A stretch of DNA of 62,980 bases from Pseudobdellovibrionaceae bacterium (GTDB lineage Bacteria; Bdellovibrionota; Bdellovibrionia; Bdellovibrionales; Bdellovibrionaceae): contig JABWCN010000023.1 of NCBI GenBank assembly GCA_013359135.1, forward strand, positions 26,012 to 88,991, given 5' to 3'. Below, one piece after another: positions 15,218 to 62,893 of this stretch. The notes beneath the pieces are model-generated. The model did not search any database, was not told the DNA's origin, and was given only the letters and a program-made list of their open reading frames with translations. The position numbers and the translations under genes are program-made. Every line of letters starts with the position of its first letter. The stretch's first letter is position 1.

Positions 15218-15257
15218 TACTTTATAAGTAGAATTCACTATGCAAAAAGGATCTTCT

Positions 15258-16475: not shown

Positions 16476-16498
16476 ACACAAGATACAAGGACACTCCA

Positions 16499-17257: not shown

Positions 17258-17570
17258 TTTTTTATCAACAACAACTCTTATGTTACTTTTTTTGACTGTT
17301 GCCCAACTAGCTCCTTGTCAGAGTCAGATAATTGCTGAAGCCACTTCTAATTTAGTAATCACATGCGCTGGTTGTCATGGCACAGAAGGAATTAGCAACA
17401 ATCCTTTATGGCCAAATCTTGCGGGACAAAAAAAAGAATACTTAAGCAAGCAACTTCTGGCATTTAAAAATCAAGACAGAAAAGATCCTCTGATGAACCC
17501 AATAGCATCATCACTTAATGAAAAAGACATTGAACTTATCGCAGAGCACTTTTCAAAAAAAAAGGAATAA
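17247..17570 (+). CDS. Small periplasmic cytochrome c (c553/c4-like)
   Basis: A 107-residue protein with a signal peptide (MKNSFLSTTTLMLLFLTVAQ) and a single class I cytochrome c fold: ITCAGCHGTEGI haem attachment, PNLAGQKKEYLSKQLLAFKN, then DPLMNPIASSLNEKDIE, where the Met is the expected axial ligand. This layout is that of c553 or one half of a c4 cytochrome. It overlaps the preceding lipoprotein gene by 11 bp, so the two are coupled. It ends 8 nt before the end of a convergent operon. Confidence 0.85.
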   Translation: MKNSFLSTTTLMLLFLTVAQLAPCQSQIIAEATSNLVITCAGCHGTEGISNNPLWPNLAGQKKEYLSKQLLAFKNQDRKDPLMNPIASSLNEKDIELIAEHFSKKKE

Positions 17571-19782: not shown

Positions 19783-20228
19783 TTTGAACTCACAATAAAA
19801 CTATATTCTAAAAATTGATCACCAAGACTTTCGTGATAAATTCTTAATTTTACATCATACAAACTTCGAATAGTTTTTGATGGCTGAATGATGTAGCCAA
19901 AACGCCCAGAACAGTTTAAACAATCTGAAACTGGATAAATCATATACTTGTCAAATGCCCATGGCATGTTTTCTTTTGTCAATTTTGATATAGCCATTGA
20001 CGATGATGAGTCATAATGAATCTGCATTATATCAATATTCTGCCTAATAGTATCAATAAGATTTGAAAATTCAGTGTTTTTAGTTGATTTAACAATCACT
20101 TGATTAACACTCTGTTTGGATTTTACAAGAAGATAGGCTGAAGACGAACCAACAATGGTAATAATCACCAATCCAAGAAGGACTTCAATAATGCTAAAAC
20201 CATGTCTAGTATTTTTTTTAACTCTCAC
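19779..20228 (-). CDS. Type IV pilin-like pseudopilin
   Basis: I choose the GTG at 20228 because AGGAG lies 7 nt upstream and the codon overlaps the stop of the preceding gene (GTGA, 20225-20228). A longer reading from 20261 would overlap by 37 bp without a site. The 149-residue product has the class III leader RVKKNTRHG followed by FSIIEVLLGLVIITIV, with Glu5 conserved. The rest is a small pilin-type globular domain with a Cys pair (DCLNC) that may close a loop. It resembles PilV/GspI-type minor pilins by position, but the subtype is uncertain. Confidence 0.75.
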   Translation of the reverse strand: MRVKKNTRHGFSIIEVLLGLVIITIVGSSSAYLLVKSKQSVNQVIVKSTKNTEFSNLIDTIRQNIDIMQIHYDSSSSMAISKLTKENMPWAFDKYMIYPVSDCLNCSGRFGYIIQPSKTIRSLYDVKLRIYHESLGDQFLEYSFIVSSK

Positions 20229-48100: not shown

Positions 48101-48472
48101 TTTTTCATCTTTAGGCAGCTGGCTTTTTACTATTTCTTCTTTTTTAAAACATTTCTCTAATAAGTTAAATGATAAATAAATTTCTGATTTTCCAATCTTT
48201 ACTTTATCCCCAGGCTCTACACTCACCGTTTTTTGCGAAGGTATCTTTTGGTCATTAACAAAAGTACCATTAGCAGACCCCTGATCCTCTATCCAAATTT
48301 TGTTATGCTTCAAGGTAACAATAAGATGAATACGACTGATATTCTGATCACTAAATGCTAAAGTAGCATCTAAAGATCTTCCTACCGTAAAAGTACTATC
48401 GTCGACTATTTTGTAGTCGACGTTTTCTCCTTCTTGAATAGTAACAATAAAAACTTGAATAGGTTTAGCCAT
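45173..48472 (-). CDS. FHA-domain, giant coiled-coil, single-TM protein
   Basis: A 1099-residue protein. Residues 1-100 are an FHA phosphothreonine-binding domain with all key residues (FTVGRSLDATLA, NISRIHLIV, DQGSANGTFVND). Residues 120-860 are continuous charged coiled coil. Within it, residues 499-587 carry Trp (once Tyr) exactly every 11 residues. A membrane span lies at about 889-908 (LSIGMGMALGMLVFFLGESV), followed by a 190-residue C-terminal domain that is probably periplasmic. The FHA end is therefore cytoplasmic. It follows the MotA-like gene by 22 nt. I know of no described protein with this order. It may be a tail or scaffold for the channel proteins, controlled by Ser/Thr phosphorylation. 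Confidence 0.9.
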   Translation of the reverse strand: MAKPIQVFIVTIQEGENVDYKIVDDSTFTVGRSLDATLAFSDQNISRIHLIVTLKHNKIWIEDQGSANGTFVNDQKIPSQKTVSVEPGDKVKIGKSEIYLSFNLLEKCFKKEEIVKSQLPKDEKESMMRLVQGAHSEAQKIVKLAQEGHDKLIKIAEQKASSIEQEMLLKQDDILSNASLQSAQIIQDAKRKGVGIINDAQKDAEKAVQDVYNKANEFKNEAEVFYKNKLEEAHVKSQDLLSKNEILAQKIVEDARGKVAEMRDFAQQEMDANKNKALQEIEELKRSVLKDAESEKEAIIQRTEREGQKKVQLLLSDAAESARVDREKLLSQAELEVEKIKHDSQSQIDLLKNDISFLKKDIEKYNHELKSLEEEKRTLQFKIERETQERRKLLEEELHARGESFDKSLDEKRIEFDERLKKRQEFAERDIATRYNDLELEEERKNKELSEFHGMLKKKEEEFFSKLTKEKELKLQELEAREKQVFDHEEKVKRDTQVWADELKARTNQWEVKTREDVTSWSKNIKLEAQEYADKTRKETQEWDRKLREETASWDKNLRAETESWNRSLRAETEEWVRQLRLTTEKWVEETRHKNEKEWTDREVQLRNFESQKRSETMLWIESEQKRKESEWSSKDTELSQLEATKNREMEIWTKEKQQEFFERNKNLISENDLLENRKKDLTAIFEELDKKHVQLKNDYEEVSKEFNQVSEQNKLLTEDNKKLQKQQEFLIQDTKAVEKKLGEMQYQHNEHVNKIENLKKEYENQKANYKNQLDADQKKMLQVSQEQMNQMKILEVEKFNKLKETMLSELYKSKDVVAKEVHQAVEREIVKVIPSGQLTAVTGNILNQIQAVFNEHTSSLKLNDEKGSHQMQKDAHQVVNKMKRDRNLSIGMGMALGMLVFFLGESVYHYVQNKQNPVTDQIAQQAEKVKQELEEKKFTPERVPEVKDTYVDLVLYTDQFVEMYLDSGYHDRWGKAAMDYLLKTWRVEEEKSIQIVAMAQTLVKTLHEKQATVRTDFLEQGLAKMREQEQETSNKIVEILGSNVKFESFRKFEKKFFRDELEKFYLSKNSKTPQDGKETPGDLQKQIDGEIEQSSKSN
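46712..46978 (-). repeat. Hendecad (11-residue) Trp repeat region in the FHA coiled-coil gene
   Basis: Residues 499-587 have aromatic residues at 499, 510, 521, 532 (Tyr), 543, 554, 565, 576 and 587, all exactly 11 apart, in units like TESWNRSLRAE. In DNA this is a degenerate 33-bp repeat with recurring TTCAGCACGAAG blocks. Confidence 0.92.
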
Positions 48473-48494
48473 ATAGCAACTTCCTAAAATTTAA

Positions 48495-49427
48495 TTATGA
48501 AACTTTAACTTTTTTAATTTCATCAAACTCACGAGTTCTTTGGCCTTTAGCGAGCTCAAGCCTGATAGACTCTTCAGCTAAAGCCTCTTGAGGATCCTTA
48601 TGTTCGTCAAAGGGTTTTTCATTGGAAGGATACTCGTTATTATCGCTACGATACCAAAGTAAATCCAAAGAGCTTTCAAATCTATCAATCATCGAAACAA
48701 AAACTCTATCTGGAGAAAATGTCACATTTATAAAATTCAGCATCAACGAAAAGGTGATTCCGAAAATTGATGATGACATGGCATATGAAATCTCAAACAA
48801 AAAACGATCCATGACGTTCTTTGTACTATCCATATCTTGTAGATTCATTCCACCAAGTTCAGGTAACCCTTTAGCAATACCAATAAAAGTTCCAAGAATT
48901 CCAGCTACGACAAACAAACCTGGCAAAATAGAAACTATGTCATTCAAACTTGAAATAGGAAACACACCAAATACCCTATTAAAACATGGATTGTGATGAA
49001 ATGTGGCTTTTGTGATATGTAAAAGTTTTGGAGTGTCTTGTGTCCACTTTAAAAATTTTAGTTGTTTAATAATGTCTTTAACAAGCCACGCACAACCTTG
49101 CTTAACCAAAAACACTCTATCACTCCAACCCATTACTTTATCAGTACGTCTACGAAGCATACGATCTCTTAAATCAAAAACTTCATAATAGGTCTTCTCT
49201 AGCATTTTTTTTGACAAAACATAAAAAGACACATTTCCCGGAGTGCTCCCAGGCTTTTCAGTTTCCATAAAGTGGGAGACTCGTTTTTCAAACTCTCTAG
49301 AAAACCATTCGTGACGCTTCACTGTGTACCAGATCATCACTCTCAAAAAAGCTCCCACACAAAACACAGCACCCATAAAGTAAGGAAGTGAGAGTATAAA
49401 ATATTCCGTAAAAGTTTTTGCTGCCAT
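48495..49427 (-). CDS. MotA/TolQ/ExbB-family (ZorA-like) proton-channel subunit
   Basis: The ATG at 49427 lies 8 nt after AGGAG and is preferred over a TTG two codons upstream. The 310-residue protein has TM1 at about 10-32, a cytoplasmic region of 130 residues, then paired segments at about 163-187 (ISILPGLFVVAGILGTFIGI-like; it contains VAGILGTFIGIAKGLPEL) and 208-235 (FLFEISYAMSSSIFGITFSL). This is the MotA/TolQ/ExbB channel pattern. It differs from flagellar MotA in having only about three spans and no charged torque loop that I can recognise. It stands between a MotB/ZorB-like gene (18 nt) and the FHA gene (22 nt). Confidence 0.85.
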   Translation of the reverse strand: MAAKTFTEYFILSLPYFMGAVFCVGAFLRVMIWYTVKRHEWFSREFEKRVSHFMETEKPGSTPGNVSFYVLSKKMLEKTYYEVFDLRDRMLRRRTDKVMGWSDRVFLVKQGCAWLVKDIIKQLKFLKWTQDTPKLLHITKATFHHNPCFNRVFGVFPISSLNDIVSILPGLFVVAGILGTFIGIAKGLPELGGMNLQDMDSTKNVMDRFLFEISYAMSSSIFGITFSLMLNFINVTFSPDRVFVSMIDRFESSLDLLWYRSDNNEYPSNEKPFDEHKDPQEALAEESIRLELAKGQRTREFDEIKKVKVS

Positions 49428-49444
49428 ATCCAAATCTCCTTTAA

Positions 49445-51106
49445 TTATTTTTTTCCATCCATACCGAAACGAATAATCACACGTTGGGATTTTTTACAGT
49501 CGTTGATTGAACAAAAATCCTTTCCTTGTGGTACGTTTTTCACTTTCATGACCTCTAAAAAGCTACGTCCAGAGACTTTCATCACAGGGAACATATCTTT
49601 TTGGTGATCAAATTCCATACTTTTATCATCGATGATGTGATTAAATATGGACTTTGCACGTTGATAACTTAAATCCATGTTGTACTTTAAAGCCTGTTTA
49701 TCTTTTCTTGCTGATGAATTAGGATCTACGTACTTACCTTTGTAAGTTGGAGATGCAAATCCAACAATTTCTACAGCTGAAATCTTATCTTTAACCTTAT
49801 TATTTCCAAATAATGACTTGGCATACACTGGCATAGCCTTTTCAAGAATTGCCTTCATATCACCATTGAGTTTAGACGACCCTGTTTCAAAGTAAGAATC
49901 ACCAAAATCCAGCATCACTTCACCTGTCTGCAAATCAATATCAGCTTTGATTCCAGCTTTTTCAAATCCTTTTTTAATTTCTTTTGCTACATCTTTTCTT
50001 AAGTCTCTTTCCTCAAGTGCTTTCTTTAGTTCTTTATCCTTACTGTGCAGATCATTTGAAAGACCAGCTATACGATCTTGCATCTCTTTTTCTTTTTGAG
50101 CAGCTCTGGCTTTAAACTCAGCTTCTTTTTTGGCTCGTTCAGCAGCCCCTAATTTGTGTTTACCTAGTTCATCATCAAAAGCCTTACGATCTCTTTCTTT
50201 TTCAAGAGCATATTGCTTTTTTAAATCTCCAATCTTCTGATTGTATTCGCCTTCTACATTATTCAATTTATTTTTTAAAGCAGAAGCCTCACCCGCTTTA
50301 TTAGACAACTCAGCTTGAGTTTGAGCTAGATCTGTTGATAGTTTTCCTAATTTCTGCTGAGTCTGATTGAGTTCTTGTTGGTAGCTCTGATTAGCCTCAT
50401 TTAACTGATCAATTTTTGACTGATTATCTTGTTTAAGCTGAGCCATTCTCTTTTCATAGGCTTGCTTTGTAATTTCTTTATTCTTCAAAGCTTCCTTAAG
50501 GGCATCCATTTTATTTTCTAAGTTTTCTTGAATCTTAGCAATTTTAACTTCGCCTTCTTCAATCAATTTCTTTTTGTTCTCAACATCTTGATTGAGCTTA
50601 GAAATTTGTTCGTCTTGAGAGTCGATAGTATCATCTTGTTCTTCGATAATATCATCACGTTTTTTAATTTTTGTTTTAGATAATACGTTTGCATTAATCA
50701 TATTACGTACCATCTGTTGGTACTGATTCAGTGCTTGTTCTTTTTTTGAGTTTTCATTAAAAGCCTGTCTCAACTTTTCTTTTTCATCCTTGGCTTCTTC
50801 TTTAAGAAGAACCAATTTATCCATAAGTTCTTGGTATGATTTCTCTTCTGAAGAATCAGCTTCTTTTTTAAGATAATCTTTCTTAATAGAATCATACATT
50901 TTAAGCTGAGCTTTTAGATCTTGAACTTCCATTTTTAAATTCTGATTATCTACTTGTTGTTTCATCCCGTTAGTCCCCGTACGCAGCGAAGACGTTACAT
51001 AAAGTAAAAGAAAAATAGTTGACAATCCCAGGAATAAATCAGAATAGGAAGTCCAAAAGTGGCCGTCATCACTGTGATTCTTATGTTTATCGTAATTAAA
51101 TGACAT
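49445..51106 (-). CDS. MotB/ZorB-like stator subunit with long coiled coil and OmpA domain
   Basis: I start at the ATG at 51106, which has GAGGA 5 nt upstream. The 553-residue protein has a single N-terminal span (YSDLFLGLSTIFLLLYV) with Asp23 at its start, the position of the proton-carrying Asp of MotB/ZorB. About 330 residues of periplasmic coiled coil follow. The OmpA/MotB peptidoglycan-binding domain comes last (VMLDFGDSYFETGSSKL, IVGFASPTYKG, NMDLSYQRAKSIFNHII). Flagellar MotB is about 300 residues with no such coil. It is the first gene of the operon, divergent from the haem-barrel gene at 51260. Confidence 0.88.
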   Translation of the reverse strand: MSFNYDKHKNHSDDGHFWTSYSDLFLGLSTIFLLLYVTSSLRTGTNGMKQQVDNQNLKMEVQDLKAQLKMYDSIKKDYLKKEADSSEEKSYQELMDKLVLLKEEAKDEKEKLRQAFNENSKKEQALNQYQQMVRNMINANVLSKTKIKKRDDIIEEQDDTIDSQDEQISKLNQDVENKKKLIEEGEVKIAKIQENLENKMDALKEALKNKEITKQAYEKRMAQLKQDNQSKIDQLNEANQSYQQELNQTQQKLGKLSTDLAQTQAELSNKAGEASALKNKLNNVEGEYNQKIGDLKKQYALEKERDRKAFDDELGKHKLGAAERAKKEAEFKARAAQKEKEMQDRIAGLSNDLHSKDKELKKALEERDLRKDVAKEIKKGFEKAGIKADIDLQTGEVMLDFGDSYFETGSSKLNGDMKAILEKAMPVYAKSLFGNNKVKDKISAVEIVGFASPTYKGKYVDPNSSARKDKQALKYNMDLSYQRAKSIFNHIIDDKSMEFDHQKDMFPVMKVSGRSFLEVMKVKNVPQGKDFCSINDCKKSQRVIIRFGMDGKK

Positions 51107-51259
51107 TTTATCCTCGTTTTTTTTCTTCTGCATTTATTTCGATCAAATGCGACTTTTACTAAATAGCACTCTTACATTTTAAAAAAAAATTCGACCTAGG
51201 ACTTGTTTTTTTAATAACTTCTTCTTGATTTTAGTCTAGCTTTGAAAAAAGATATTCAC

Positions 51260-52405
51260 ATGAAAACTTTCATTACCTTTCTTTTCTTAGCTAATCTCTG
51301 CCTTGCCTACACTGATTTCATAGGCTACGGATATAGTTCCTGTATGACCTGCCACTACAACGGGCAGGGAAATGGTCCATTAAACGATTACGGTCGTGGA
51401 GTTTTTGCTGCAGAAATTATTTCAAAAGCCTTAATGACAAAAGACATTAAGGATGAAGAGTTATCTGAACGCAGTGGCTTTTTAGGGAAAACACCTTTAC
51501 CTTGGTGGTTTCGCCCAGGGTTTAAATACAGAGGCCTATGGTTTCAAACCAATCCAGGTAGCGAACAATCAACGAATCGTCTTGTACACATGCAGGCAGA
51601 CGCTACCGCCGCTTTTCACTTTGATCAAGATCAAAAGTGGGTTCTAGTCACTTCGTTCGGATACTACCCAGTTCCTCCAAGTGCTCAAAGCGATCCCAAT
51701 AAACCCTCATCTTGGATTTCACGTGAACATTATTTACGTTACTTAAAAAGTGAGAACCTAACACTATTTTTTGGCTTAATGGATAAGGCTTTTGGAATAA
51801 GAACTATAGATCATACTGCTTACTCACGTAGCAAAACAGAAATTGCTCAAAATGATCAAACCTATGGCGTTATGGCCATCTTCAGAAAAGAACCCTGGGA
51901 GTACACGACTCATGTATTTATAGGTAACTTTGCACAGACAGCTGAACTTCGTCAACGCGGTCTAAGCTTGATGGCTGAAAAAGACTTAAATCAATACCAC
52001 CGCCTCGGTGGAAGTTTTTTAATGTCTGAAAACAACTATAAAAATCTGACTCGTTTGGCAGGCCACTCTAAACTTGGTTTTGGCAAAGGCAACAGCTTTT
52101 TAACTGAACTGGGATTAATACAAAATAAGCCCAAATCTTCCGAACTCAAGAACGGTGGCTATGCCATGGCACAAAGTATGGCAATGCTTACTAGAGGTTA
52201 TTTTTTTCTTTCTCAAGCAGAGTATTACAATCAAACTCTTTCTACAAAATCAGCTGATAATTTAAGATGGACGTTTGGTTTGGTTAGTTTCCCCTATTTG
52301 AAAACGGAATACCGTCTAACTTTAATAAACGGTAGAGATCTCTCTGATGAAACAGTTTCTGGAGATTCTTGGCAATTACACATGCAACTTCATCTTTCCC
52401 TTTAA
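51260..52405 (+). CDS. Second exported beta-barrel-like protein with N-terminal haem c motif
   Basis: Starts at the ATG at 51260 (a TTG at 51242 would only lengthen the leader). The 381-residue product has signal peptide MKTFITFLFLANLCLAYT, then GYSSCMTCHYNGQGNGPLNDY with CxxCH. About 330 residues of barrel-like strands follow, ending WQLHMQLHLSL. The CxxCH followed by Gly-rich G-x-G-P-x-N-x-Y/N-G is shared with the protein at 15258, where the length is similar. The two are probably paralogues of a haem-bearing outer-membrane protein family. It is divergent from the stator-like operon and followed by another outer-membrane protein gene. Confidence 0.72.
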   Translation: MKTFITFLFLANLCLAYTDFIGYGYSSCMTCHYNGQGNGPLNDYGRGVFAAEIISKALMTKDIKDEELSERSGFLGKTPLPWWFRPGFKYRGLWFQTNPGSEQSTNRLVHMQADATAAFHFDQDQKWVLVTSFGYYPVPPSAQSDPNKPSSWISREHYLRYLKSENLTLFFGLMDKAFGIRTIDHTAYSRSKTEIAQNDQTYGVMAIFRKEPWEYTTHVFIGNFAQTAELRQRGLSLMAEKDLNQYHRLGGSFLMSENNYKNLTRLAGHSKLGFGKGNSFLTELGLIQNKPKSSELKNGGYAMAQSMAMLTRGYFFLSQAEYYNQTLSTKSADNLRWTFGLVSFPYLKTEYRLTLINGRDLSDETVSGDSWQLHMQLHLSL

Positions 52406-52437
52406 AAGGGACTAATAAGGAACTTGAAAAAGACATT

Positions 52438-53244
52438 ATGAAAAAAAAATTATTATTACCCCTCATGTTAGCTCTTTATATATCTTCTAATTCAGTTCAG
52501 GCTGAGCAGAAAACTGCTACTTCTAAAAAAGTAGCACCAGGCCCTAAAGCTCAACCCCAAACTCCAGTTCAAAAACAACAACCTCCCTCAATTCAAGAAA
52601 CCAGTGCCGTTCAAAAAAAAGTAACTCTTCCTGAGGAATTAAAGCTAGATCCAGAACCTGAAGAGACTAAAAGCATCGACAACAACGAGGATTTACCCAA
52701 TCGAATTAGTAGCAAACTTTCAACAAAGCCTAAATTTAAAAATCGTAAGGCTTTTACTATCGACTATAATACTTGGTACGAGGTTTTAAAGATTAAAGAC
52801 AAAACTAACTCCACTTATAGTGATTCTAAAACTCATTACTTCGGAGTAGGATTCTACTATGATTATACTGTTTATGAAGAAAAATATGGCTACGCTATCT
52901 CTCCTGGTATTGTGACCGGCAATGCCCAAGCTGGAACACAAGGCTCCGGTGAATATTATGAACGACGAATCCCATGGCTTGGGTATCGCCTTGGAGGAAG
53001 ACTGTTTTTTAGAGCGAATAATCGGATCGATATTGGTCCTGCGTTTATAGCTCAGTACAAAACAACTAAATGGCCAGAGGAAACTCAATATCAAGTTATG
53101 CCACAAGTGAATCCTCAATACTTTATCTATCTTGATACTCGTTGGCGCATCAGTTACCCTTTAGAACTAATTCAGTCTTTTGGAGTTCATACTCGTCAGT
53201 ACGCCTTAGTCTGGCGTCTTGGCATTAATTACACCTTAAACTAA
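52438..53244 (+). CDS. Exported outer-membrane-like beta protein
   Basis: The ATG at 52438 gives a clean signal peptide (MKKKLLLPLMLALYISSNSV, then QAEQK). Earlier in-frame codons would overlap the previous gene. The 268-residue protein has a Pro/Gln/Lys-rich linker of about 70 residues, then barrel-like strands (FGVGFYYDYTVYEEKYGYAI, WLGYRLGGRLFFR, YALVWRLGINYTLN) ending in Tyr-Thr-Leu-Asn. The linker could cross peptidoglycan. It starts 32 nt after the haem barrel and probably shares its transcript. Function unknown. Confidence 0.7.
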   Translation: MKKKLLLPLMLALYISSNSVQAEQKTATSKKVAPGPKAQPQTPVQKQQPPSIQETSAVQKKVTLPEELKLDPEPEETKSIDNNEDLPNRISSKLSTKPKFKNRKAFTIDYNTWYEVLKIKDKTNSTYSDSKTHYFGVGFYYDYTVYEEKYGYAISPGIVTGNAQAGTQGSGEYYERRIPWLGYRLGGRLFFRANNRIDIGPAFIAQYKTTKWPEETQYQVMPQVNPQYFIYLDTRWRISYPLELIQSFGVHTRQYALVWRLGINYTLN

Positions 53245-53249
53245 AAGAA

Positions 53250-53609
53250 TTAATTGATACTGTTTATCCAAGTTTTCAGTGTCGACATCTCTGTTTGTGA
53301 TAAATTAGATTGCCCTTCTGGCATATCACCAGCTATTCCTGTGTCATTACCACGAACTCGCGTATACAACTCTGAGCTTGCTGGTGATTTCTTAGTCACT
53401 AGCTTCTTAGAGACAAAATCTGTTTCTGAATAGGAACTCCAAGCTGTATGTTGATGACAACTGGCACACTTCTCTCTAAGAATTGTAGCTGCAGAAACAA
53501 ACTCTTCTGTACCTGTTGCCGTAGCGGCATCAGAACTTGAAGAATTCTTCACCTTGCCACACCCAAAAGCTAAAAACAAAAAAAACAATCCAAGAATTTT
53601 TTTAACCAT
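53250..53609 (-). CDS. Small lipoprotein with a single cytochrome c motif
   Basis: A 119-residue protein with a lipoprotein signal (VKKILGLFFLFLAFGC, canonical FGC). The mature part begins Gly-Lys-Val and a Ser/Ala linker, then ILREKCASCHQHTAW with CxxCH. A later GDMPEGQSNLSQTEMSTLKTW supplies a likely Met axial ligand in the DMP motif that its larger relatives in this window share. It is convergent with the gene at 52438 and divergent from the big cluster at 53868. Confidence 0.82.
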   Translation of the reverse strand: MVKKILGLFFLFLAFGCGKVKNSSSSDAATATGTEEFVSAATILREKCASCHQHTAWSSYSETDFVSKKLVTKKSPASSELYTRVRGNDTGIAGDMPEGQSNLSQTEMSTLKTWINSIN

Positions 53610-53867: not shown

Positions 53868-55841
53868 TTGAGTCGCAGACAATTACTATCTCAAAGATCA
53901 AAAAAGACTCTACTAGCGTTCTTGTTTATTTCATTATTAGTAGTTCCGTTTCAAAACTGTAAGAAGTTTGATACTTCTGAAAACTCTGTGTCTGCAACTT
54001 CAGATGATGGTTCTTACAGTAGTAATGATCCTTCAAATACAACAAAGGAACCATCACCACAATTACCAACACAGACAACACCTATTGACACAGCTGATCC
54101 AGCCGTTGTTGCCGCTGAGAATGCTAGACAAGAACGTTGTCGTAATAATATCAAGAAACCCGTCATCGTAAATGCAAATGACGTTTCTAACTTTGTATTT
54201 AACCTGAGTTCAGGCCTAAGCACAGCTGGAGGGGATTTAAATTCAACAGAAAATAAAGACATTACTGTAGACCCTTCCAAAGGAATCATAGACCTATCAC
54301 TGACTACTCCACAACTCAGCGGTGGAGATGGTTGCTCCTATGTGACTTCGCTAAGAATTGATGCCGTTAACGACGCCTCAAGACCAGCTGAACTAAAAAA
54401 TGCCATTAACTTCTCTGGAGTAAGTGTCGTTACTCAAGATAGTGCAACTAATTTTGGAATCGCCAAAGCAACTATTGCTTCAAATCCTAACAACAACAAT
54501 AATAATAATTTTGCCACCAACACACTCAATTTGAAATTTACAATCGTAAACAACAATAATCGTGATTACCGCTGTGTTGAGGGATCGCTATGGTACGCAG
54601 TTAAAGTTCGAGTATCCACACAGTCATTACCAAACAACAAACAATTGGAATCAGACCCTGTTTATATTAAAGCCAATATTACGAACAGTTGTTGGAAAGA
54701 AAACAAACTAAAAGCATCAAATGATTTTCCTCTTAATGCAAAAGCTGGAAGTAAAGTGTCTTTAGATGGTAATTGGGCTGCAGTGTTATCACCTTCTGAT
54801 AGTAATAAAGGAGCCGTCTTTTTGTTTACTAAAAACCCATCAAATGAATGGATTTTTTCACAAAAACTTGTCATGCCTGACTCCGCATCTGGTCAGAATC
54901 TTTCTAACTTGGATTTAAAAGGCAACATTTTAGCTGTTTCAAACTCTGGATATGCCAGCAAGGGAAAAGTTTATATTTTTAAAAACGTTAACTCTTCTTG
55001 GAGTTTCGTTCAAGGAATTGATGCCTACGAAAATACTGTTCTTTACCAACAGTTTGGTCAAGGTCTAGCTCTATCTTCTAATTCTCTTACTATAGGAGCA
55101 CCTTCCCATCCAAAGTCGGGAGCCGCTGAAAGTGATACGGGTAAGGTTTATGTTTACAATTATAACTCAGGCTCTGGTCTTTTTGAATACAACCAGACTC
55201 TAGAGGGTAGCAATGAACCACATTTTGGTTTTGGAAAAGTGATTCAAAACTACAACAACAGTAAGTTAATCATTGGCGCTCCTGACTCTGTCAATGGCAG
55301 CACCGGTCGTGTTTTTGTTTTCAATAAGTCTTCAATATGGTCTCAGGAACTGGCTATTGCTCCACCATCATCAATTACCCAAAGTGCTACTTTTGGAGCT
55401 GCTATTGCATTTAATGGGACAGCTTTAGTTGTAGGCGCTCCGTATGATGATAGAGATGCTAATAATCTAGATCGTGGGTCTGTTTTTTATTATAAAAATT
55501 ATAACTCTAGTGTTTTTCATACCATGAAAGGCGCAACAAATAATGGAAAGTTTGGTGTGTCTTTGGCTTTAACCACAGATTCACTTTACATCGGCTGTTC
55601 TGTTTGTGGTGACAATCAATCAGGAGTGGTATTCAGAAAGCTTCTTTCTAATATCGAAAGTTCTACTGTCAGCAACAGAGATATAAATAAGTTTATTAAT
55701 TTTAGTCAAGATAACACCAACACAGAGTCTTTTGGTCAGTCTCTAGTTTCTGATGGTGTTTCAACTATTATGGTAGGAGCTCCCTCTAAAGACACACCGT
55801 CTTTAAAGAGTGGTGCCGCTTATATCTATAATGTTCGTTAG
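53868..55841 (+). CDS. Surface lipoprotein with FG-GAP/propeller-like repeats
   Basis: A 657-residue protein starting at TTG, 4 nt after a run of seven G. The signal (LLAFLFISLLVVPFQNC) ends in FQNC, a non-canonical lipobox with Asn at -1. A Ser/Thr/Pro linker and a first beta-rich domain to about 280 are followed by at least five blades of FG-GAP/integrin-alpha style: SLTIGAPSHPKSG...GKVYVYN, LIIGAPDSVNGSTGRVFVFN, ALVVGAPYDDRDANNLDRGS and TIMVGAPSKD...GAAYIYN. It is probably a seven-bladed propeller used for adhesion or protein contacts. It leads the cluster running to 62893. Confidence 0.78.
   Translation: MSRRQLLSQRSKKTLLAFLFISLLVVPFQNCKKFDTSENSVSATSDDGSYSSNDPSNTTKEPSPQLPTQTTPIDTADPAVVAAENARQERCRNNIKKPVIVNANDVSNFVFNLSSGLSTAGGDLNSTENKDITVDPSKGIIDLSLTTPQLSGGDGCSYVTSLRIDAVNDASRPAELKNAINFSGVSVVTQDSATNFGIAKATIASNPNNNNNNNFATNTLNLKFTIVNNNNRDYRCVEGSLWYAVKVRVSTQSLPNNKQLESDPVYIKANITNSCWKENKLKASNDFPLNAKAGSKVSLDGNWAAVLSPSDSNKGAVFLFTKNPSNEWIFSQKLVMPDSASGQNLSNLDLKGNILAVSNSGYASKGKVYIFKNVNSSWSFVQGIDAYENTVLYQQFGQGLALSSNSLTIGAPSHPKSGAAESDTGKVYVYNYNSGSGLFEYNQTLEGSNEPHFGFGKVIQNYNNSKLIIGAPDSVNGSTGRVFVFNKSSIWSQELAIAPPSSITQSATFGAAIAFNGTALVVGAPYDDRDANNLDRGSVFYYKNYNSSVFHTMKGATNNGKFGVSLALTTDSLYIGCSVCGDNQSGVVFRKLLSNIESSTVSNRDINKFINFSQDNTNTESFGQSLVSDGVSTIMVGAPSKDTPSLKSGAAYIYNVR
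54489..54509 (+). repeat. Short trinucleotide (AAY)7 tract encoding poly-Asn
   Basis: Seven successive Asn codons (three AAC, four AAT) inside the propeller-like lipoprotein gene, at about residue 208-214. It is in frame and may vary in copy number. Confidence 0.7.
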
Positions 55842-55883
55842 TGTTTTGGGGTGTTCTACGGTTCGTTAATTTGGGGGTTAAAA

Positions 55884-58103
55884 ATGTTGCATTTTAAATT
55901 AGGATTATTATCCATCTTAGTTCTGGTATCTACAAGAACAATGGCTGATATTTCTGACTCTATCCGCAATGACAAAGCTGTTGTGATATACGAGTTTAAC
56001 GAAGCCTCTGGTGATAGTTTTATTGACTCTTCAAATCCAAAGTATGGAGCTAGTTTGAACCTAACTAATTATACACCAGGAAACGTATCTAGAGGTGTTG
56101 ATAGTAATGGCGATAAATATATTTCGGTGGATGTAAAATCAGTCATAAGATCTAACTCAGCTGCTGCCAAAATCTATAATGAATGTAAAAAAGATACAAG
56201 TAATGGTCTTACCGTTGAACTCGTTGTCGAAAATAATGAATCTGTTCAACTGCGTTCGGGAATGTATCCTGACAAAGTAGAGCAACCTTTAAGAATTTTA
56301 AGTTACTCAAGAGACTTCACCAATAGAACTATTAAAGTCAATGGAACAAATACTAATCAAGTTAACGTAAATTTTGCCATTGGTCAGTTCTATGACATGG
56401 GAAATCTTTATTTGGGAGCTGTAACGACAGGATCTAATAATAACTTATTTACAGATCCTCTTAAATCTTCAACTAATGGACTACTACTTAAAGGAGTTTC
56501 AAGGCCTGCATCATCTTATAAACAAACTGTAGTTCTTTCTGTAAGTAAATCAGGTATTGCTAGATTGTTTTTAAGTGACAGAAATGGAAATATTTATCAA
56601 GCTAGTGAAACTTCTCAAGGCTTTGGTGGTCAGGCTAGCGCGTTTACAAGTCGTTGGGCAAGTGATGCTTATTTAAATCTAGCTAATGATTTTATCGCCG
56701 ACAGTCAGATATCAACAACTCTGAATCGCAATGATCAATTTGCTAATGGTACTTGCGTTGATGCCTGTGCAGATAATCCCAATCGTTTTTGGAAAGGTAA
56801 AATATATCGTGTAGCTGTATACTGTCAGGCTCTTGCTAAAGCCGACGTCTTCGGTAATGCCTATGCAGTAAACAGAAATGAAGTTATTCCCTTATCACAA
56901 GTAAAAGTGAATGATCAGTTACTTAAAGCTTCGGAAATTTACAATCGCCTCACGGGTGTAAAAACACCTATCTACAACCCTATTCTACAGCAAATAGCAG
57001 CAAAACTTGACAGTCAAGATCCTATTGGCGCTGCAGCCCTACTGACTGAGCATCCTCTTTTTTATAATATCACAGTTAAAAACTTCGCTGCAAAAATGTC
57101 AAACAGAGATGAAACGATCAATGTCCCTCTTAATGATTTTACAGCTACGATTGTGGGTGCAACTCGTGATAATCTGAATTCAAAAACCTTACTTTATGAA
57201 AATTATTACTATCAGGCAGACCCTTCGAAGGCTGCAGTTCCAAGTGATGACGTAGATGACTTGTTAAAATCAAATAATCATTACGAAGCACTTGACCGTG
57301 GTGACTTTGATTTAAAAGCAGTCTTGGTCAAAAAAACTCCACAACTTGTTTTTGATGGGACATCAGCAGTTTCAAATCCAACTCCTGCTGGTTTACTAAC
57401 TACCAGACAATGGGCGGCAGCTCACTTTCTTGCAGGAACTAATCGTCGTGCAGTGGAATTTACATTAAGAGAATTCACTTGCACACCCATCGAAAATGCA
57501 GCTGATTCTTCTGGGCCAGAAGATGTTATTGGTCGTGACATTGACAGAAATCCTGGTGGAAGTATGTCAAAATTTACAACCTCTTGCCGTGCTTGTCATA
57601 CCGTCCTTGATGGTTTCAGACCAGCTTATGCTTTTATGACATTTTCAAATAATTTTTTAAAACACTCTCTAATTGTTCCCAATTCAACAGCAAATAATTT
57701 AAATGAAGATAATTCTACCTCTATGGGGGTCCATGTTGATGCTCCAAAAGTAGCACGAAAATTCAATCGCAATGAAACTACTTTCCCTGGTGGTAAAGTA
57801 GTTAGAGATGATTCTTGGGTAAACAATGCAAATAGTGGCACGAATAAGGCCAATTTTGGTTGGACACATACCTCAGGCAAGGGCATCACTGAATTCGGCA
57901 GAACTATTGCTGAAAGTAAGGCTTTCCCTAAATGCATGGCTAAACGAGTATTTTTTACTGTTTGTAAGCGCGAAGCTAATGCAAAAGATGACGCCTTTTT
58001 AACTAAAGTTTCTGAAGAGTTTTCATCACCTGAACGTAACTACAACTTGAAGTATCTGTTTCAAAGAATTGTTACAAATGATTCCTGTTTAGGAGGGGGT
58101 TAA
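55884..58103 (+). CDS. Exported LamG-like protein with a C-terminal CxxCH domain
   Basis: The ATG at 55884 lies 6 nt after GGGGG and begins a signal peptide (MLHFKLGLLSILVLVSTRTM, ADISD). An upstream GTG at 55851 has no such site. The 739-residue protein has an N-terminal concanavalin/LamG-like domain (VIYEFNEASGDSFIDSS ... FWKGKIYRVAVYCQAL). The C-terminal half contains TTSCRACHTVLDGFRPAYAF with a haem c motif and resembles, in general layout, the planctomycete-type cytochrome/DUF1585-1588 proteins that travel with DUF1501 proteins. The last codons (Gly-Gly-Gly) form the ribosome-binding site of the next gene. Confidence 0.72.
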   Translation: MLHFKLGLLSILVLVSTRTMADISDSIRNDKAVVIYEFNEASGDSFIDSSNPKYGASLNLTNYTPGNVSRGVDSNGDKYISVDVKSVIRSNSAAAKIYNECKKDTSNGLTVELVVENNESVQLRSGMYPDKVEQPLRILSYSRDFTNRTIKVNGTNTNQVNVNFAIGQFYDMGNLYLGAVTTGSNNNLFTDPLKSSTNGLLLKGVSRPASSYKQTVVLSVSKSGIARLFLSDRNGNIYQASETSQGFGGQASAFTSRWASDAYLNLANDFIADSQISTTLNRNDQFANGTCVDACADNPNRFWKGKIYRVAVYCQALAKADVFGNAYAVNRNEVIPLSQVKVNDQLLKASEIYNRLTGVKTPIYNPILQQIAAKLDSQDPIGAAALLTEHPLFYNITVKNFAAKMSNRDETINVPLNDFTATIVGATRDNLNSKTLLYENYYYQADPSKAAVPSDDVDDLLKSNNHYEALDRGDFDLKAVLVKKTPQLVFDGTSAVSNPTPAGLLTTRQWAAAHFLAGTNRRAVEFTLREFTCTPIENAADSSGPEDVIGRDIDRNPGGSMSKFTTSCRACHTVLDGFRPAYAFMTFSNNFLKHSLIVPNSTANNLNEDNSTSMGVHVDAPKVARKFNRNETTFPGGKVVRDDSWVNNANSGTNKANFGWTHTSGKGITEFGRTIAESKAFPKCMAKRVFFTVCKREANAKDDAFLTKVSEEFSSPERNYNLKYLFQRIVTNDSCLGGG

Positions 58104-58105
58104 TT

Positions 58106-58771
58106 ATGAGAGATTCAAAGAAAATTAAACACGTGATACGGGCACTTCAAATTATGAGTCTCACTGCAGTTGCCTTGGTTATTTTTGGAAATGGCTGCTC
58201 TGAAGGTGGTTTTGTTCCATCTGAATCTGTGGCTCAATCTCCTACACAAGATGATTCACTTCAATGTAAAAGCCCAACTGAAATTGAAGTCATCCCAGGA
58301 GCTAAAACAGCATCTCTTGTTGGAGCTAGTGAAGTTCTAAAACAACTCACCAACTGTGTTGGTTTAGAAACTTATTCAGATGCAACAAAAAAAGTTTATG
58401 ATGACAAGAAGGGATCTATCTCTACTTATGGAGCTGCTAACTCCATCACTCCTCCGATGATGATGGCCATCACAAGTATTGCAGGTGAGGTCTGTTCAGA
58501 TCTTATCGACAAAGAAATCTCTCAAGGAAGCAGAATATTTACAGGAATGGATCTTTCTTCTTCAACTCTTCCTTCAAACTCTCAAATAGGAAATGCCATA
58601 AGTAATTTAGCTCTTTCTTGTTGGAGAGGGAATGAATCTAACGAAGAAAAAGCAGCACTGTTAGATATGGTTAATCAAAGCGTTGCTTCTTCCGAAACTG
58701 GAGCAGCAAGGAAGGCGGCACTTCTTGTCTGCACAGCGATGTTATCAAGCTTAGATTCTTTATTAAATTAA
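58106..58771 (+). CDS. Lipoprotein of unknown function
   Basis: A 221-residue protein starting 3 nt after the previous stop, with GGAGGGGG 6 nt upstream of the ATG. The signal ends VIFGNGC, so Cys is the probable lipid site. The mature part is helical and Ala/Ser-rich, with four further Cys (LQCKS, TNCVG, EVCSD, LSCWRG, VCTAM region). No haem motif or known domain is seen. Its place between the LamG/CxxCH protein and the Tat-exported DUF1501-like protein suggests it is a structural partner in that set. Confidence 0.65.
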   Translation: MRDSKKIKHVIRALQIMSLTAVALVIFGNGCSEGGFVPSESVAQSPTQDDSLQCKSPTEIEVIPGAKTASLVGASEVLKQLTNCVGLETYSDATKKVYDDKKGSISTYGAANSITPPMMMAITSIAGEVCSDLIDKEISQGSRIFTGMDLSSSTLPSNSQIGNAISNLALSCWRGNESNEEKAALLDMVNQSVASSETGAARKAALLVCTAMLSSLDSLLN

Positions 58772-58835
58772 AGAACTAACAGTTACTGATTTATGGGGAT
58801 TTTATAATTATTTTTTTTAAAAGTGGGGAAAATTT

Positions 58836-60299
58836 ATGACTTCAAAAAAGAACAATAACACAACACAACCAACACCTTTGTACCATGGTAGAAAGCCTAT
58901 GAATCGTAGAGAATTTTTAGCTTCAGGGACTATTCCCTTTGCGGCTTCAATGACTTTACCTTCACTTCTCACTTTATTCGCTCGCTCAGGTGTCGCTGAA
59001 GCTCAAGAACTTTGCAAAGGTTCAAGTTCAAAAATGATTCCCATAGTTAATGTGAATTTAAGTGGTGGTGCCGGACTTACGGCACAATGGATTCCTCTAA
59101 CAGAAGGTCGTGAGTTGTTACAAAAATACCAAAAAATTGGTTTAGGACTTTCTTCTCAGTTGGCCTTACAAGTTGAAAAGGCATTCAAAAACAATGCCCC
59201 TTTCTGGTCTGGAAGTGGTTTTCTAGCTGGTCTAAAAACAAGTAATGTAGCCAATCTTGCGGTAAACGCCATGAACAATGCTCATTTCGTAGGAATGTGT
59301 CAACAGTCACAAAATGACTCGGATACAAATAAATTTTCTATTGCTGGGCTTGTTGATAAGGCAGGGCTTAAAGGTAAAATTCTTCCGCCGTTGGGGCGAT
59401 TTGATAACGGAGTTGGCGTTAGTAATGCTTTGGCTTTAGTTTCTGGAACACCTCCTTTGATTGTGAATAATGCAGACAATATTGTTAATGCTCTTGGTGT
59501 TGCAGATAGATTAGGAACTTTAAATCAAAACCAAAAGACCGCCTTATTTAAAACAATTTCGTCTTTATCTGATAGTCAAGTTCGAAAAGTTGCTAACTAC
59601 ACAGGGGGATCAGCACTAAATTATCTTTTAGGTTCTGCAACTAAAGACAATACCAATCTTATTGAAAACCCTTCATCATTAGATATTAATCCTTTATCAA
59701 ACCAAGCTTTTGCACAAGTATGGGGACTCAATGCTAACACGGCAAAAGGAAGTGCTGATTACGTTCATGCTTCTTTAGTTTACAATGCCATCAATGGGAA
59801 TGCAGGTTCCATTGGAATTGAATTAGGTGGTTATGATTACCATGGAAGTGATCGTGTAACAGTAACGACACCTAGAGATTTAGCCGCAGGTGTTGTCGTT
59901 GGAAAGATCCTTCAATCATTTCATGTAATGAACAGCAAAGGCTTTATCTATGTAAATACAGATGGTGGCGTTGGAGCTGCTGCTTCTGATACACCTGGAG
60001 CTAGTTTCACAGCTGACAGAGGTGATGCGGGTGCCGTGTATATGATTGCTTATGACCCTTCAAACTCGACAGAAAGTTCTGACTCTCAGTTAGGACATAT
60101 GAAAAACAATCCAGATGCAGAGGCCGCTGATGAAACTTTTTTAGTAGGGGGAAGTCCTGAAGTTGGGGCTGCTGCTATTTTTGCAAACTATCTTTCTTTT
60201 AATGGCATGATAAATAAATTTTCGAGTCTTCCTGAGACAGGAAGACTCTTTGACTCAGCTCAACTTGAGAAAATTGTAAAAATCCATGGAAAGAGCTAG
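58836..60299 (+). CDS. Tat-exported DUF1501-like protein
   Basis: A 487-residue protein. The N-terminus has a long polar region and a twin-arginine motif (MNRREFLASGTIPFAASMTL, then PSLLTLFARSGVAEAQ), so it is folded in the cytoplasm before export. The core has PIVNVNLSGGAGLTAQWIPL and SIGIELGGYDYHGS, the latter like the GG-x-D-x-H motif of DUF1501 proteins (sulfatase/alkaline-phosphatase-like fold). DUF1501 genes are typically paired with cytochrome-domain genes, exactly as here. GTGGGG lies 7 nt before the ATG. The catalytic status is unknown. Confidence 0.78.
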   Translation: MTSKKNNNTTQPTPLYHGRKPMNRREFLASGTIPFAASMTLPSLLTLFARSGVAEAQELCKGSSSKMIPIVNVNLSGGAGLTAQWIPLTEGRELLQKYQKIGLGLSSQLALQVEKAFKNNAPFWSGSGFLAGLKTSNVANLAVNAMNNAHFVGMCQQSQNDSDTNKFSIAGLVDKAGLKGKILPPLGRFDNGVGVSNALALVSGTPPLIVNNADNIVNALGVADRLGTLNQNQKTALFKTISSLSDSQVRKVANYTGGSALNYLLGSATKDNTNLIENPSSLDINPLSNQAFAQVWGLNANTAKGSADYVHASLVYNAINGNAGSIGIELGGYDYHGSDRVTVTTPRDLAAGVVVGKILQSFHVMNSKGFIYVNTDGGVGAAASDTPGASFTADRGDAGAVYMIAYDPSNSTESSDSQLGHMKNNPDAEAADETFLVGGSPEVGAAAIFANYLSFNGMINKFSSLPETGRLFDSAQLEKIVKIHGKS

Positions 60300-60376
60300 A
60301 GAGACTCTTTTATACTGAAGAAAGAAACCAACAGGGATTTCTTTGACGAGCTCACGTCTATTGTTTTGGGGGAAAA

Positions 60377-62152
60377 ATGCGTCTTAAAAATTTAATCCGT
60401 GCTTCAAGCTTTGCCTTGTTAACAGCGATTTTATTATTGGGGTACAACAATTGTGGCAAAGCTAAAAAAGAGGATAGCTTAAGTAGTCAATCGACGTCTG
60501 ATGCTGTACTGAGCCCGGATGCCTGTGAAAATCAATTAATGCTTTTCTTCGATCGCAGTTATCACTCTTTTTTAAAACAAAATTGCAGTTCCTGCCATGC
60601 GACCGGTCCAGGTAAAGGACAATTTGCTAACAATGATGTCATAGTCGCTTACAAAGATTTCATGCAAGTCGGATACACGAAAGTTTCTTCTAATGCCATT
60701 AGTGATGGACATAACCCACCCTACTCTGGTTCCCACCACACCCAAACAATAAACGACCTCAGAGTTACTTGGGTTCAAGCTTTAGCCGAAAATGACATCT
60801 GCAAAGGCGGTACTGGTGCTGTTGATGATACGTTAAGCCTTAAAGATAGAGCTCATTTTTCATTAGTCAGAAAAAAAATTCCTGCCATGGAAGATAACCA
60901 AGAAAAACGTATTGAGTTTAATCTTACGACGGAACTTTCGGCTCTTAAAGGTGAAGCCACTCCTAATCTAGCTGGAGCTAAATTTTCCATCATGATTAGA
61001 AAAGAAATCAAGGGTAATGCTAAATATTATGCTGTCCACTCTCCCAGAATTTTTGGTGGTACTAAAGATATTCATATCAAAGGGATTTTTACAAAAATAA
61101 ATACACGCTACATTCAACACAGTACTAATTTTCGCTTTGTTGACAAATCTATAGCAAAAAGTTCGACCGAAGATTCTATTAACTCTTTGGTTTCAACCGG
61201 AGCTTTAACTATACCTGGCGCTATGTCCGTCGATGATGAGATAAATTTCGACTTTGAAAAAATTGAACTCACTGAGATTCCACCACCGCCACCACCAGTT
61301 GTACTCTCTTTCACTTCGGCCTCTTACAGTAAAGCAGATAGCTCAGGAGTAGTATCAGTACAAATTTCTCTAGATAAGGCTACAACAGAGCCAATTTCTT
61401 TTACAATTGAAGCTGATAACTCACCTCTTTGTGGTAGCACTAACGATAGCTTAACTTTGAATAATTCCACCTGTCATCCAAACGCTTATAGCCTTCTTTG
61501 CCCTACTGGAAACTGCGGCCCCGTAGTTACTAATATCAATTTAGCTCGCTCTGTTGTAGGTGCTACTTATAATCGTTTCGATTGGGACTTTAAGTTTCCT
61601 CAAACTTCAGCCTTATTTTCAGTGGGAGAGACTACAAAAACTTTTGAAATCTTAACGTCTAAGGACATTCGCTATGAAGCTAATCGTATCTTAAGCCTTA
61701 AACTATCAGTTGGTTTAGGCAATGCTACTTTGGGTAAATCCAATGTTTATGTGGTTTTTGATAAAAGGAAAAATCCGATCCCTGGGTCTTCTGAAATCAC
61801 TTATTCTAAATTGATGAACTCCACCAACCCCACAGAAGGAATTTTAGCCTTTAAATGTATGAACTGTCACAACTCAAATCCATCTCAACAACAGGGTGGA
61901 TTTGATATGGCTAACTATGCACTGATGGTTTCTCAAGGGGTTCTAAATCCTGGAATGGACTTTATGACTATCAATAGCTCGACTGGAGAGATTACCAAAA
62001 CTTATGCCTCCAAACTTTTCAAACGAATGAATCCTCAAGATCCAGATTCAGGAAGTTATTTAACACCAATGCCAAGGGATAAATATCTTGATCCTGATGA
62101 GGAAGTTTCTAAAGTTGAAAGATGGATTTTAAATGGAGCTTTAAATAATTAA
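60377..62152 (+). CDS. Lipoprotein with two CxxCH domains flanking a Calx-beta-like domain
   Basis: A 591-residue protein whose ATG follows GGGGG by 4 nt. The signal ends LLLGYNNC (Asn at -1). An N-terminal haem module has QNCSSCHATGPGKG. A His/Pro-rich stretch and a beta domain follow, then PPPPPP. A Calx-beta-like domain (about 305-465; VVLSFTSASYSKADSSGVVS to NVYVVFDKR) precedes the C-terminal haem module KCMNCHNSNPSQQ, with YLTPMPRDKY as a likely Met ligand. It is probably anchored in a membrane leaflet as an elongated electron-transfer or adhesive protein. Confidence 0.78.
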   Translation: MRLKNLIRASSFALLTAILLLGYNNCGKAKKEDSLSSQSTSDAVLSPDACENQLMLFFDRSYHSFLKQNCSSCHATGPGKGQFANNDVIVAYKDFMQVGYTKVSSNAISDGHNPPYSGSHHTQTINDLRVTWVQALAENDICKGGTGAVDDTLSLKDRAHFSLVRKKIPAMEDNQEKRIEFNLTTELSALKGEATPNLAGAKFSIMIRKEIKGNAKYYAVHSPRIFGGTKDIHIKGIFTKINTRYIQHSTNFRFVDKSIAKSSTEDSINSLVSTGALTIPGAMSVDDEINFDFEKIELTEIPPPPPPVVLSFTSASYSKADSSGVVSVQISLDKATTEPISFTIEADNSPLCGSTNDSLTLNNSTCHPNAYSLLCPTGNCGPVVTNINLARSVVGATYNRFDWDFKFPQTSALFSVGETTKTFEILTSKDIRYEANRILSLKLSVGLGNATLGKSNVYVVFDKRKNPIPGSSEITYSKLMNSTNPTEGILAFKCMNCHNSNPSQQQGGFDMANYALMVSQGVLNPGMDFMTINSSTGEITKTYASKLFKRMNPQDPDSGSYLTPMPRDKYLDPDEEVSKVERWILNGALNN

Positions 62153-62185
62153 TTGGCATTAATACAGATCGTTAAAGGATAGAAA

Positions 62186-62893
62186 ATGAAAACAACTTAC
62201 AACAAACTAAAACCAAAATGGAGAGTGTTAGCATTAGTGAGTTTACTTTCTCTACTCACAATAACCTCCTTTCAAAACTGTTCGGCGATTAATGCTCCAA
62301 ACGGTCTTGATCAATCAGCTTCGAATGCGACAGAGTCAGAATTGATGGGACAACAAGCTATGGAGATTCTTTCTCGCCGCTGTGAAAGTTGTCACAATCC
62401 GGACAATGCTAAGGGAGACATCTCTGATATCATGGATATTAATTACTTACTTTATTATCGTCTTGTAATTCCTGGCCAGCCAGAGATTTCAGATCTTATC
62501 AGGGTGGTTAAAGAAGGCTCAATGCCTCCTAATGGATCATTAAGCAATGAGGAGCTTTCTCTGCTTACGAATTGGATTCAAAATGGACTTGTTGATAATG
62601 GCAAAGGTGTCACTCTTCCTGATATTTCAGCTCCATTACAAGCTAAATATGGTAGTTTACAGGTGAGCCTTTTTAACGTTAAGTGTGTTAGTTGTCATAA
62701 TCCTGCTAATCTTTCTGGAAACATAGACCTATCAGTTTACAACGGTGTTAAAGCCTCAGTTAATAGCAATAAACTTATTGCCTCTATTGAGAGACCAGGG
62801 ACTAACTTTATGCCTCGGAATGGAGCTAGACTTTCAGCTGATGAAATTGCAAAGTTAAAAGAATGGATTGCTAATGGAGCCAACCAGGATTAA
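62186..62893 (+). CDS. Lipoprotein with two duplicated cytochrome c modules
   Basis: A 235-residue protein with AAAGGA before its ATG. The signal ends TITSFQNC, the same ending as the protein at 53868. Two modules follow: ILSRRCESCHNPDNAKGD...EGSMPPNG and LFNVKCVSCHNPANLSGN...NFMPRNG. Each has CxxCH, a distal MP Met and a final helix with W-I-x-N-G. The arrangement matches the two-haem lipoprotein at 16499, so the two are probably paralogues. It closes the visible cluster. Confidence 0.82.
   Translation: MKTTYNKLKPKWRVLALVSLLSLLTITSFQNCSAINAPNGLDQSASNATESELMGQQAMEILSRRCESCHNPDNAKGDISDIMDINYLLYYRLVIPGQPEISDLIRVVKEGSMPPNGSLSNEELSLLTNWIQNGLVDNGKGVTLPDISAPLQAKYGSLQVSLFNVKCVSCHNPANLSGNIDLSVYNGVKASVNSNKLIASIERPGTNFMPRNGARLSADEIAKLKEWIANGANQD

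Follow-up and report, generated by a model that had tools for sequence, protein, structure and literature searches.

A conserved module of cytochrome-like genes around a Tat-exported protein in Bdellovibrionota

Six consecutive genes (p1 to p6) occupy positions 53868-62893 of a 62,980-nucleotide stretch of DNA (hereafter the window) from a Pseudobdellovibrionaceae bacterium (assembly GCA_013359135.1, contig JABWCN010000023.1, positions 26,012 to 88,991), and they raise the question of whether they form a unit and what such a unit might do. A first-pass annotation had proposed a surface assembly, perhaps for prey contact or electron transfer, which included a DUF1501-like protein exported by the twin-arginine translocation (Tat) route; overall, this proposal was partly supported. 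Four of the genes, p2-p3-p4-p5, are a conserved unit found throughout the phylum Bdellovibrionota. We give an even chance to the reading that this unit corresponds to the planctomycete-type pair of a PSCyt/PSD haem protein and an HXXSHH/DUF1501 protein, with the haem protein divided over several genes, and acts as an envelope redox complex.

Conservation of the gene module

The six open reading frames (ORFs) and the motifs discussed below are located as follows (window positions).

53868..55841, + strand: p1, FG-GAP beta-propeller lipoprotein, accessory
55851..58103, + strand: p2, secreted protein whose predicted LamG-like domain (residues 34-335) precedes a DUF1588/DUF1585-like haem core
57585..57599, + strand: p2 haem-c motif CRACH, both C and the H invariant in 39/39 homologues
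58106..58771, + strand: p3, lipoprotein, probable stand-alone N-terminal half (DUF1587/DUF1595 region) of a PSD protein
58836..60299, + strand: p4, Tat-exported protein with a predicted alkaline-phosphatase-superfamily fold, from a family without a Pfam model
59835..59843, + strand: p4 D334-Y335-H336, invariant; candidate metal site with D376 and D394
59961-59963 (D376) and 60015-60017 (D394), + strand: rest of the candidate metal site of p4
60377..62152, + strand: p5, lipoprotein, CxxCH at 60584-60598 and 61856-61870
62186..62893, + strand: p6, di-haem lipoprotein, accessory, CxxCH at 62381-62395 and 62684-62698

Export signals were identified by inspection in all six proteins, as the first-pass annotation had noted, with lipobox-like ends in p1 (FQNC), p3 (GNGC), p5 (YNNC) and p6 (FQNC). 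The GTG start of p2 at 55851 is probably wrong and an ATG at 55884 is likelier, since inspection revealed a G-rich ribosome-binding site before it and a clean signal peptide after it. Successive intergenic gaps from p1 to p6 measure 9, 2, 64, 77 and 33 bases. None of the + strand terminator-like sites found inside the cluster lies between genes, all of them falling within ORFs; both features would fit a single transcript. The contig ends just past p6 (contig position 88991, also the end of the window), so that the region 3' of this gene lies outside view.

A p4 homologue was detected in 77 of the 147 relatives of this genome and, by profile search, in 161 of the 368 genomes searched across the phylum. 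Forty stretches around p4 genes were examined, and 39 yielded the p4 gene by BLAST with window proteins only; in L045 p4 was lost to a longer antisense ORF, and this locus stands outside the 39-locus BLAST count and inside the 41-locus profile count. With the window proteins as queries, the immediate neighbours of p4 at the 39 loci were p2 (38), p3 (36) and p5 (36), the single miss of p2 corresponding to a contig end (L036). Profile searches of the window and the 40 loci recovered p3 in 41/41, p2 in 40/41 and p5 in 39/41, counts that are partly circular because the profiles were built from the p4 neighbours in the same loci; the BLAST results and the stretches from other families are free of this circularity. 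In 20 such stretches, belonging to other families of the phylum and outside the profiles, p3 preceded p4 in all 20, p2 was present in 19 (one of them a contig-edge fragment) and p5 followed p4 in 17. Median spacing within the core was about 3, 24 and 26 bases (44, 45 and 45 gaps). At the genome level, p2 and p4 were both present in 73 and both missing from 66 of the 147 genomes, the remaining 8 being discordant (139/147 concordant). The module is real, phylum-wide and far beyond chance, and its conserved unit is p2-p3-p4-p5, not all six genes.

The other components were much more variable. p1 was recognised by phmmer in 9/41 loci, with three more by BLAST (L042, L044 and L065), p6 in 11/41 loci, and the LamG-like part was missing from 17/39 p2 proteins (short forms); these are lineage-specific extras. 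The expectation that gene order would be kept across genomes therefore held for p2-p3-p4-p5 and failed for p1 and p6.

In the genus that includes Bdellovibrio bacteriovorus (g6), p4 was present in 15 genomes and missing from at least 9, and is thus dispensable, which argues against a general need for it in predation; nothing was found in support of the suggested prey contact. A p4 match was obtained in Bdellovibrio bacteriovorus kdesi, and in the stretch from genome G037 the core gene order was read from the ORFs. When genome contigs were scanned for named matches, a single protein returned none, and five sequences returned only B. bacteriovorus kdesi.

These distributions bear on the possibility that the genes build a surface adhesion or prey-contact assembly in which the haems are incidental. 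Such an assembly would be in keeping with the propeller of p1 (FG-GAP_2, E-value 2.3e-21 over three stretches, consistent with the propeller lipoprotein first described), with the concanavalin-A/LamG-like domain of p2 and with the Calx-beta domains of some homologues. Many copies of the module do without the propeller or the LamG-like domain, however, which makes surface adhesion a poor description of it; the haem motif of p2 is kept even where those domains are lost, and Bdellovibrio-genus genomes without p4 exist. We regard this explanation as very unlikely.

The putative haem proteins p2, p5 and p6 and the lipoprotein p3

Among p2 homologues, matches at E <= 1 were obtained to PSD2 (DUF1585) in 24/39 and to PSCyt3 (DUF1588) in 13/39, and the window p2 itself matched PSD2 with an E-value of 5.9e-4, below the Pfam cut-off. 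Profile comparison with hhalign related p2 to the canonical PSD protein (E 1.1e-8), as expected from the kinship with planctomycete-type cytochrome pairs that had been proposed for the cluster; against the DUF1588 haem protein that belongs to DUF1501 triads, p2 scored E 1.8e-7. The comparison of p2 with p5, both of them haem proteins, gave 0.0034-0.005, its remaining comparison families 0.073 or worse, and unexpected pairings of p2, p3 and p4 overall 0.047 or worse. In the canonical PSD chain DUF1587, DUF1595 and DUF1592 precede DUF1588. The DUF1588 CxxCH domain followed by DUF1585 was found in p2, without those three domains ahead of it in a single chain, and no DUF1592 counterpart was identified among the module proteins. 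These similarities mark p2 as a shortened DUF1588/DUF1585 haem protein. Its CxxCH and four more cysteines are invariant in 39/39 homologues.

Regarding the LamG domain that had been assigned to p2 together with this haem motif, Pfam gave no LamG match for the window protein and Laminin_G_3 in just 4/39 homologues; the AlphaFold model (predicted local distance difference test score, pLDDT, 86) nevertheless predicts a domain of this type, since residues 34-335 match concanavalin-A/LamG-type sandwiches with Z 16-17. A helical haem core follows the sandwich in the model, and was barely tested by the structure-match list. The Foldseek rows include clostridial neurotoxin binding domains beside arabinanase and lectin modules, which reflects the common concanavalin-A-like sandwich and is no indication of toxicity.

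For p3, hhalign against the N-terminal half of the PSD protein gave an E-value of 1.2e-6 with the whole sequence, and the matched columns are those that we take to be the location of DUF1587/DUF1595. Moderate evidence thus suggests that p3 is probably a stand-alone counterpart of this half. A p5-type haem domain is fused ahead of p3 in L158, L159 (two proteins) and L173, with a CxxCH in that place also in L168, and the resulting order, as read from the sequences, is that of the haem and DUF1587/1595 domains in the canonical chain. Profile comparison showed no kinship of p3 with the small middle protein of DUF1501 triads (E 0.66), nor of p2 or p3 with DUF1800.

Two further observations concern p3-containing proteins. 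An open frame of 1801 amino acids in a locus from another family (L159:11978-17383) carries a haem domain and p3 at its C-terminal end, and Calx-beta domains were found in 2/22 scanned p3 proteins (best E 1e-43), a set that excludes this frame.

Homologues of p5 matched Cytochrome_CBB3 (35/37), PSCyt1 (25/37) and Calx-beta (6/37) at E <= 1, and the comparison of p5 with PSD gave 2.1e-5, while p6 matched Cytochrome_CBB3 (E 2.1e-11) and PSCyt1 (E 7.7e-8). Inspection of p5 and p6 confirmed the two CxxCH lipoproteins of the first-pass annotation, with two motifs each. Based on this motif p2, p5 and p6 are putative c-type cytochromes with covalently bound haem, and the genome carries genes for cytochrome c assembly (Cytochrom_C_asm, found twice).

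The arrangement was compared with that of related systems in the phylum. The pairs in question had been considered mainly planctomycete, a view that does not hold among the 147 relatives, in which HXXSHH was found in 43 and DUF1501 in 63 (51 over the cut-off). In the pair of PSCyt3/PSD and HXXSHH (DUF1552) proteins, known from Planctomycetes and Verrucomicrobia and present also in this phylum (L113-L122), a DUF1588/DUF1585 haem protein likewise stands beside a large Tat-exported protein on one strand, and carbohydrate-binding modules including Laminin_G_3 are sometimes attached, according to the portion of PMC5615132 available. All ten HXXSHH loci examined had a CxxCH protein of about 550-690 amino acids directly upstream. 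Unlike this single chain, the haem protein of the module would be divided among p2, p3 and p5, the gene for the C-terminal half coming first; p4 does not match HXXSHH.

DUF1501 loci were of two kinds, with either a haem-free partner (DUF1800-like by its sequence) or a triad of a DUF1588 haem protein, a protein of 220-270 amino acids and DUF1501. The order of the triads (L127-L129, L131), in which the last protein is Tat-exported, is comparable to that of the module, yet their middle protein shows no profile kinship with p3. The genome analysed here carries one such triad on contig C31 and, on C19, a second set made up of a haem protein weakly matching PSD2, a DUF1501 protein and two lipoproteins. 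DUF1800-DUF1501 pairs, described for instance beside bacterial chitin synthases in the accessible part of PMC5122149, resemble the module in having a Tat-exported partner, in their case DUF1501, and differ from it in having no haem partner. The p2-p3-p4-p5 module is a third kind beside HXXSHH pairs and DUF1501 loci.

According to the available portion of PMC5615132, nothing is known of PSCyt function, although a role in carbohydrate metabolism has been suggested and some of these proteins carry carbohydrate-binding modules; by analogy, the LamG-like part of p2 would fit such a role. DUF1501 is described as lacking characterization in the part of PMC4452313 available. In titles and abstracts, with most subscription journals outside reach, no description of the module or of the function of the pair was found, and the main text of a Bdellovibrio paper (PMC12546842) mentions neither cytochrome, DUF1501, LamG nor FG-GAP. 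A search for Bdellovibrio transcript or proteome data by presumed locus numbers likewise returned nothing.

The Tat-exported protein p4

The Tat export assigned to p4 was borne out by a twin arginine that is invariant in 40/40 homologues. Its description as DUF1501-like was not: none of the 40 homologues matched Pfam DUF1501 (PF07394) or a related family at E <= 1, a wider set gave one match in 22 (E 0.051), and a PF07394 search of the same genome returned two other loci and not p4. Profile comparison with DUF1501 yielded an E-value of 3.3e-4 with the Tat signal included, and membership of p4 in this family was dropped because the score was not significant once the signal was removed. HXXSHH (PF07586) had no match in the genome, and the signal-free comparison of p4 with that family gave 0.13.

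The AlphaFold model of p4 (pLDDT 80) predicts an alkaline-phosphatase-superfamily fold, all of the top 50 VIA-align rows being enzymes of this superfamily (Z 11.0-12.0, 208-244 residues, 3.7-5.5 Å). Residues D161, D334, H336 and D376 are invariant in 62/62 homologues and D394 in 61/62. The p4 motifs GGYDYH, TDG and DRG align with GxDTH, SEF and GTDH of DUF1501, D394 falling on the GTDH aspartate, whereas the residues conserved in DUF1501 (D51, H130, D296, H298, E342, D356 and H357) are kept only partly in p4. Position 74, which presumably corresponds to the first metal aspartate common in the superfamily, is Asp in 22/22 of the wider set; of the 40 homologues around the order of the window, 28 have Asn and one Asp, so that the metal site looks reduced there. 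p4 shares its setting and probably its fold with DUF1501/HXXSHH proteins, yet by test is not a member. Sequence searches of the PDB with p4, DUF1501, p2 and u1 (an upstream gene product, see below) returned chance-level matches only, and with PSD essentially its N-terminal cytochrome.

Alternatively, p4 may be a catalytically active, metal-dependent enzyme of the alkaline phosphatase superfamily, a hydrolase or transferase acting on a phospho- or sulfo-ester, with the haem proteins merely as scaffold or regulators. The predicted fold and the invariant residues would suit such an enzyme, and so would the export route, as Tat export suits metal-cofactor proteins. The apparently reduced site around the order of the window tells against it, as does the CxxCH partner p2, kept at p4 loci nearly always, and we consider this explanation unlikely.

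Longer p4 homologues of 784 and 798 amino acids were observed in two loci from the same genus as the window (L135, 6502-8856, and L136). They lack the usual p2 neighbour, and a lipobox-like N-terminus was read in the one from L135.

Linked genes and a possible envelope redox complex

The region linked to the module begins at 51242, with three genes upstream of p1.

51242..52405, + strand: u1, exported, N-terminal CMTCH, remainder beta-barrel-like (barrel by inspection only); no Pfam match
52369..53244, + strand: u2, probable outer-membrane protein (by inspection only), accompanies u1; no Pfam match over cut-off
53250..53609, - strand: u3, small mono-haem lipoprotein cytochrome, linked in several loci

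Matches of u3 to Haem_bd (E 7e-4) and Cytochrome_CBB3 (E 0.0033) were both under the Pfam cut-off. A u1 homologue was found within the stretch examined in 16/41 p4 loci, lying upstream or downstream and in either orientation, where 0.29 loci would be expected by chance (random placement, 40 genomes); these counts are not independent among related genomes, yet they comprise about five side/strand arrangements. As u1 occurs without p4 in 34 genomes and p4 without u1 in 24, the tie is frequent and not obligatory. An extracellular electron-transfer conduit, with the barrel-like u1 haem protein exchanging electrons with the p-proteins through the outer membrane, might be suggested by this linkage with its changing side and strand, and by the several lipoprotein cytochromes of the cluster. 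The independent occurrence of u1 and p4 counts against it; each protein has just one or two haem motifs, and u1, whose barrel was recognised by eye, has no meaningful PDB match. We consider a conduit of this kind quite unlikely.

Other features were observed in the window. A second cluster at 15240-17570 encodes an exported CxxCH protein of 411 amino acids with a u1-like layout, a protein with two CxxCH motifs (Cytochrome_CBB3 E 1e-8, PccH E 8.5e-6) and a small cytochrome c. Of three - strand genes at 45173-51133, one encodes a long protein of coiled-coil type that begins with an FHA-like region and one a MotA-like protein (both by inspection); the third product, of the OmpA/MotB-plug type, resembles ZorB2 (NCBIfam E 4.6e-8, far below cut-off). 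The set resembles a Zorya-like or other envelope motor. A row of minor-pilin-like genes lies on the - strand at 18796-22711, with prepilin-like N-termini (GLTLLEV, GFSIIEV) recognised by inspection.

In the split redox complex that we favour, three gene products would make up the protein that is a single chain elsewhere: its first haem domain would come from p5, its DUF1587/DUF1595-like half from p3 and its DUF1588-haem/DUF1585 half from p2. p4 would fold in the cytoplasm, probably with bound metal, leave through Tat and dock on p2 and p3, these two jointly doing the job of that chain. Electrons might then pass through the haems of p2 and p5, plus those of p6, u3 and u1 where present, linking a substrate bound at p4/p2 with either the cell surface or the respiratory chain, and the LamG-like, propeller, Calx-beta and collagen-type additions, which vary by lineage, may tune the contacts of the complex. 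The genes, their order and co-occurrence, the haem motifs, the invariant residues and the Tat motif were observed directly; the alkaline phosphatase fold of p4 and the p2 sandwich are model predictions, and complex formation, electron flow and substrate oxidation are inferred. As a more speculative and rather unlikely extension, p4 could found a family in which the alkaline phosphatase fold has shifted from hydrolysis to redox chemistry, a Tat-exported protein with a reduced metal site holding the substrate while the split cytochrome oxidises or reduces it.

The split-complex reading draws on the kept order and close spacing of the core genes, the shared presence or absence of p2 and p4, the correlated distances of p2, p3, p4 and p5 (r 0.81-0.91), the profile matches of p2 and p5 to PSD, the haem-p3 fusions, the predicted fold of p4, the cytochrome c assembly genes and the linkage of u1. 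Besides the non-independence of the u1 counts, several points weigh against it. p5 was not recognised in L056 and L057 of the 41-locus set, nor in L158, L159 and L174 from other families, and the correlation of distances came without a control gene and mostly reflects shared descent. p5 matches PSD through its C-terminal haem domain, perhaps as a generic cytochrome c, while in the fusions seen elsewhere it is the N-terminal domain that is joined to p3. Removal of the signal peptide lowers the p3-PSD match to E 0.0025, PSD5 touches only 3/38 and 1/22 p3 homologues, and the window p3 scores 14.3 bits against a PSD5 cut-off of 34.2. Without its signal, p4 compares with DUF1501 at E 0.024-0.029, and at 0.015 with the wider set; one of these signal-free comparisons used thin DUF1501 and HXXSHH sets (11 and 6 sequences from 21 and 20 loci), since ORFs were accepted only if their length and position fitted. 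Foldseek alone was weak for p4 (best E 9e-4, low template-modelling score).

PSCyt/PSD and DUF1501/HXXSHH proteins span several phyla and have no assigned function. If the more speculative reading of p4 is true, p4 and the split cytochrome would be an envelope redox machine across a phylum known for its predators, Bdellovibrio bacteriovorus included. A split version provides separate, smaller subunits that can be expressed, deleted and mixed, and the presence of the module in B. bacteriovorus, a genetically workable predator, would make the role of the pair directly testable.

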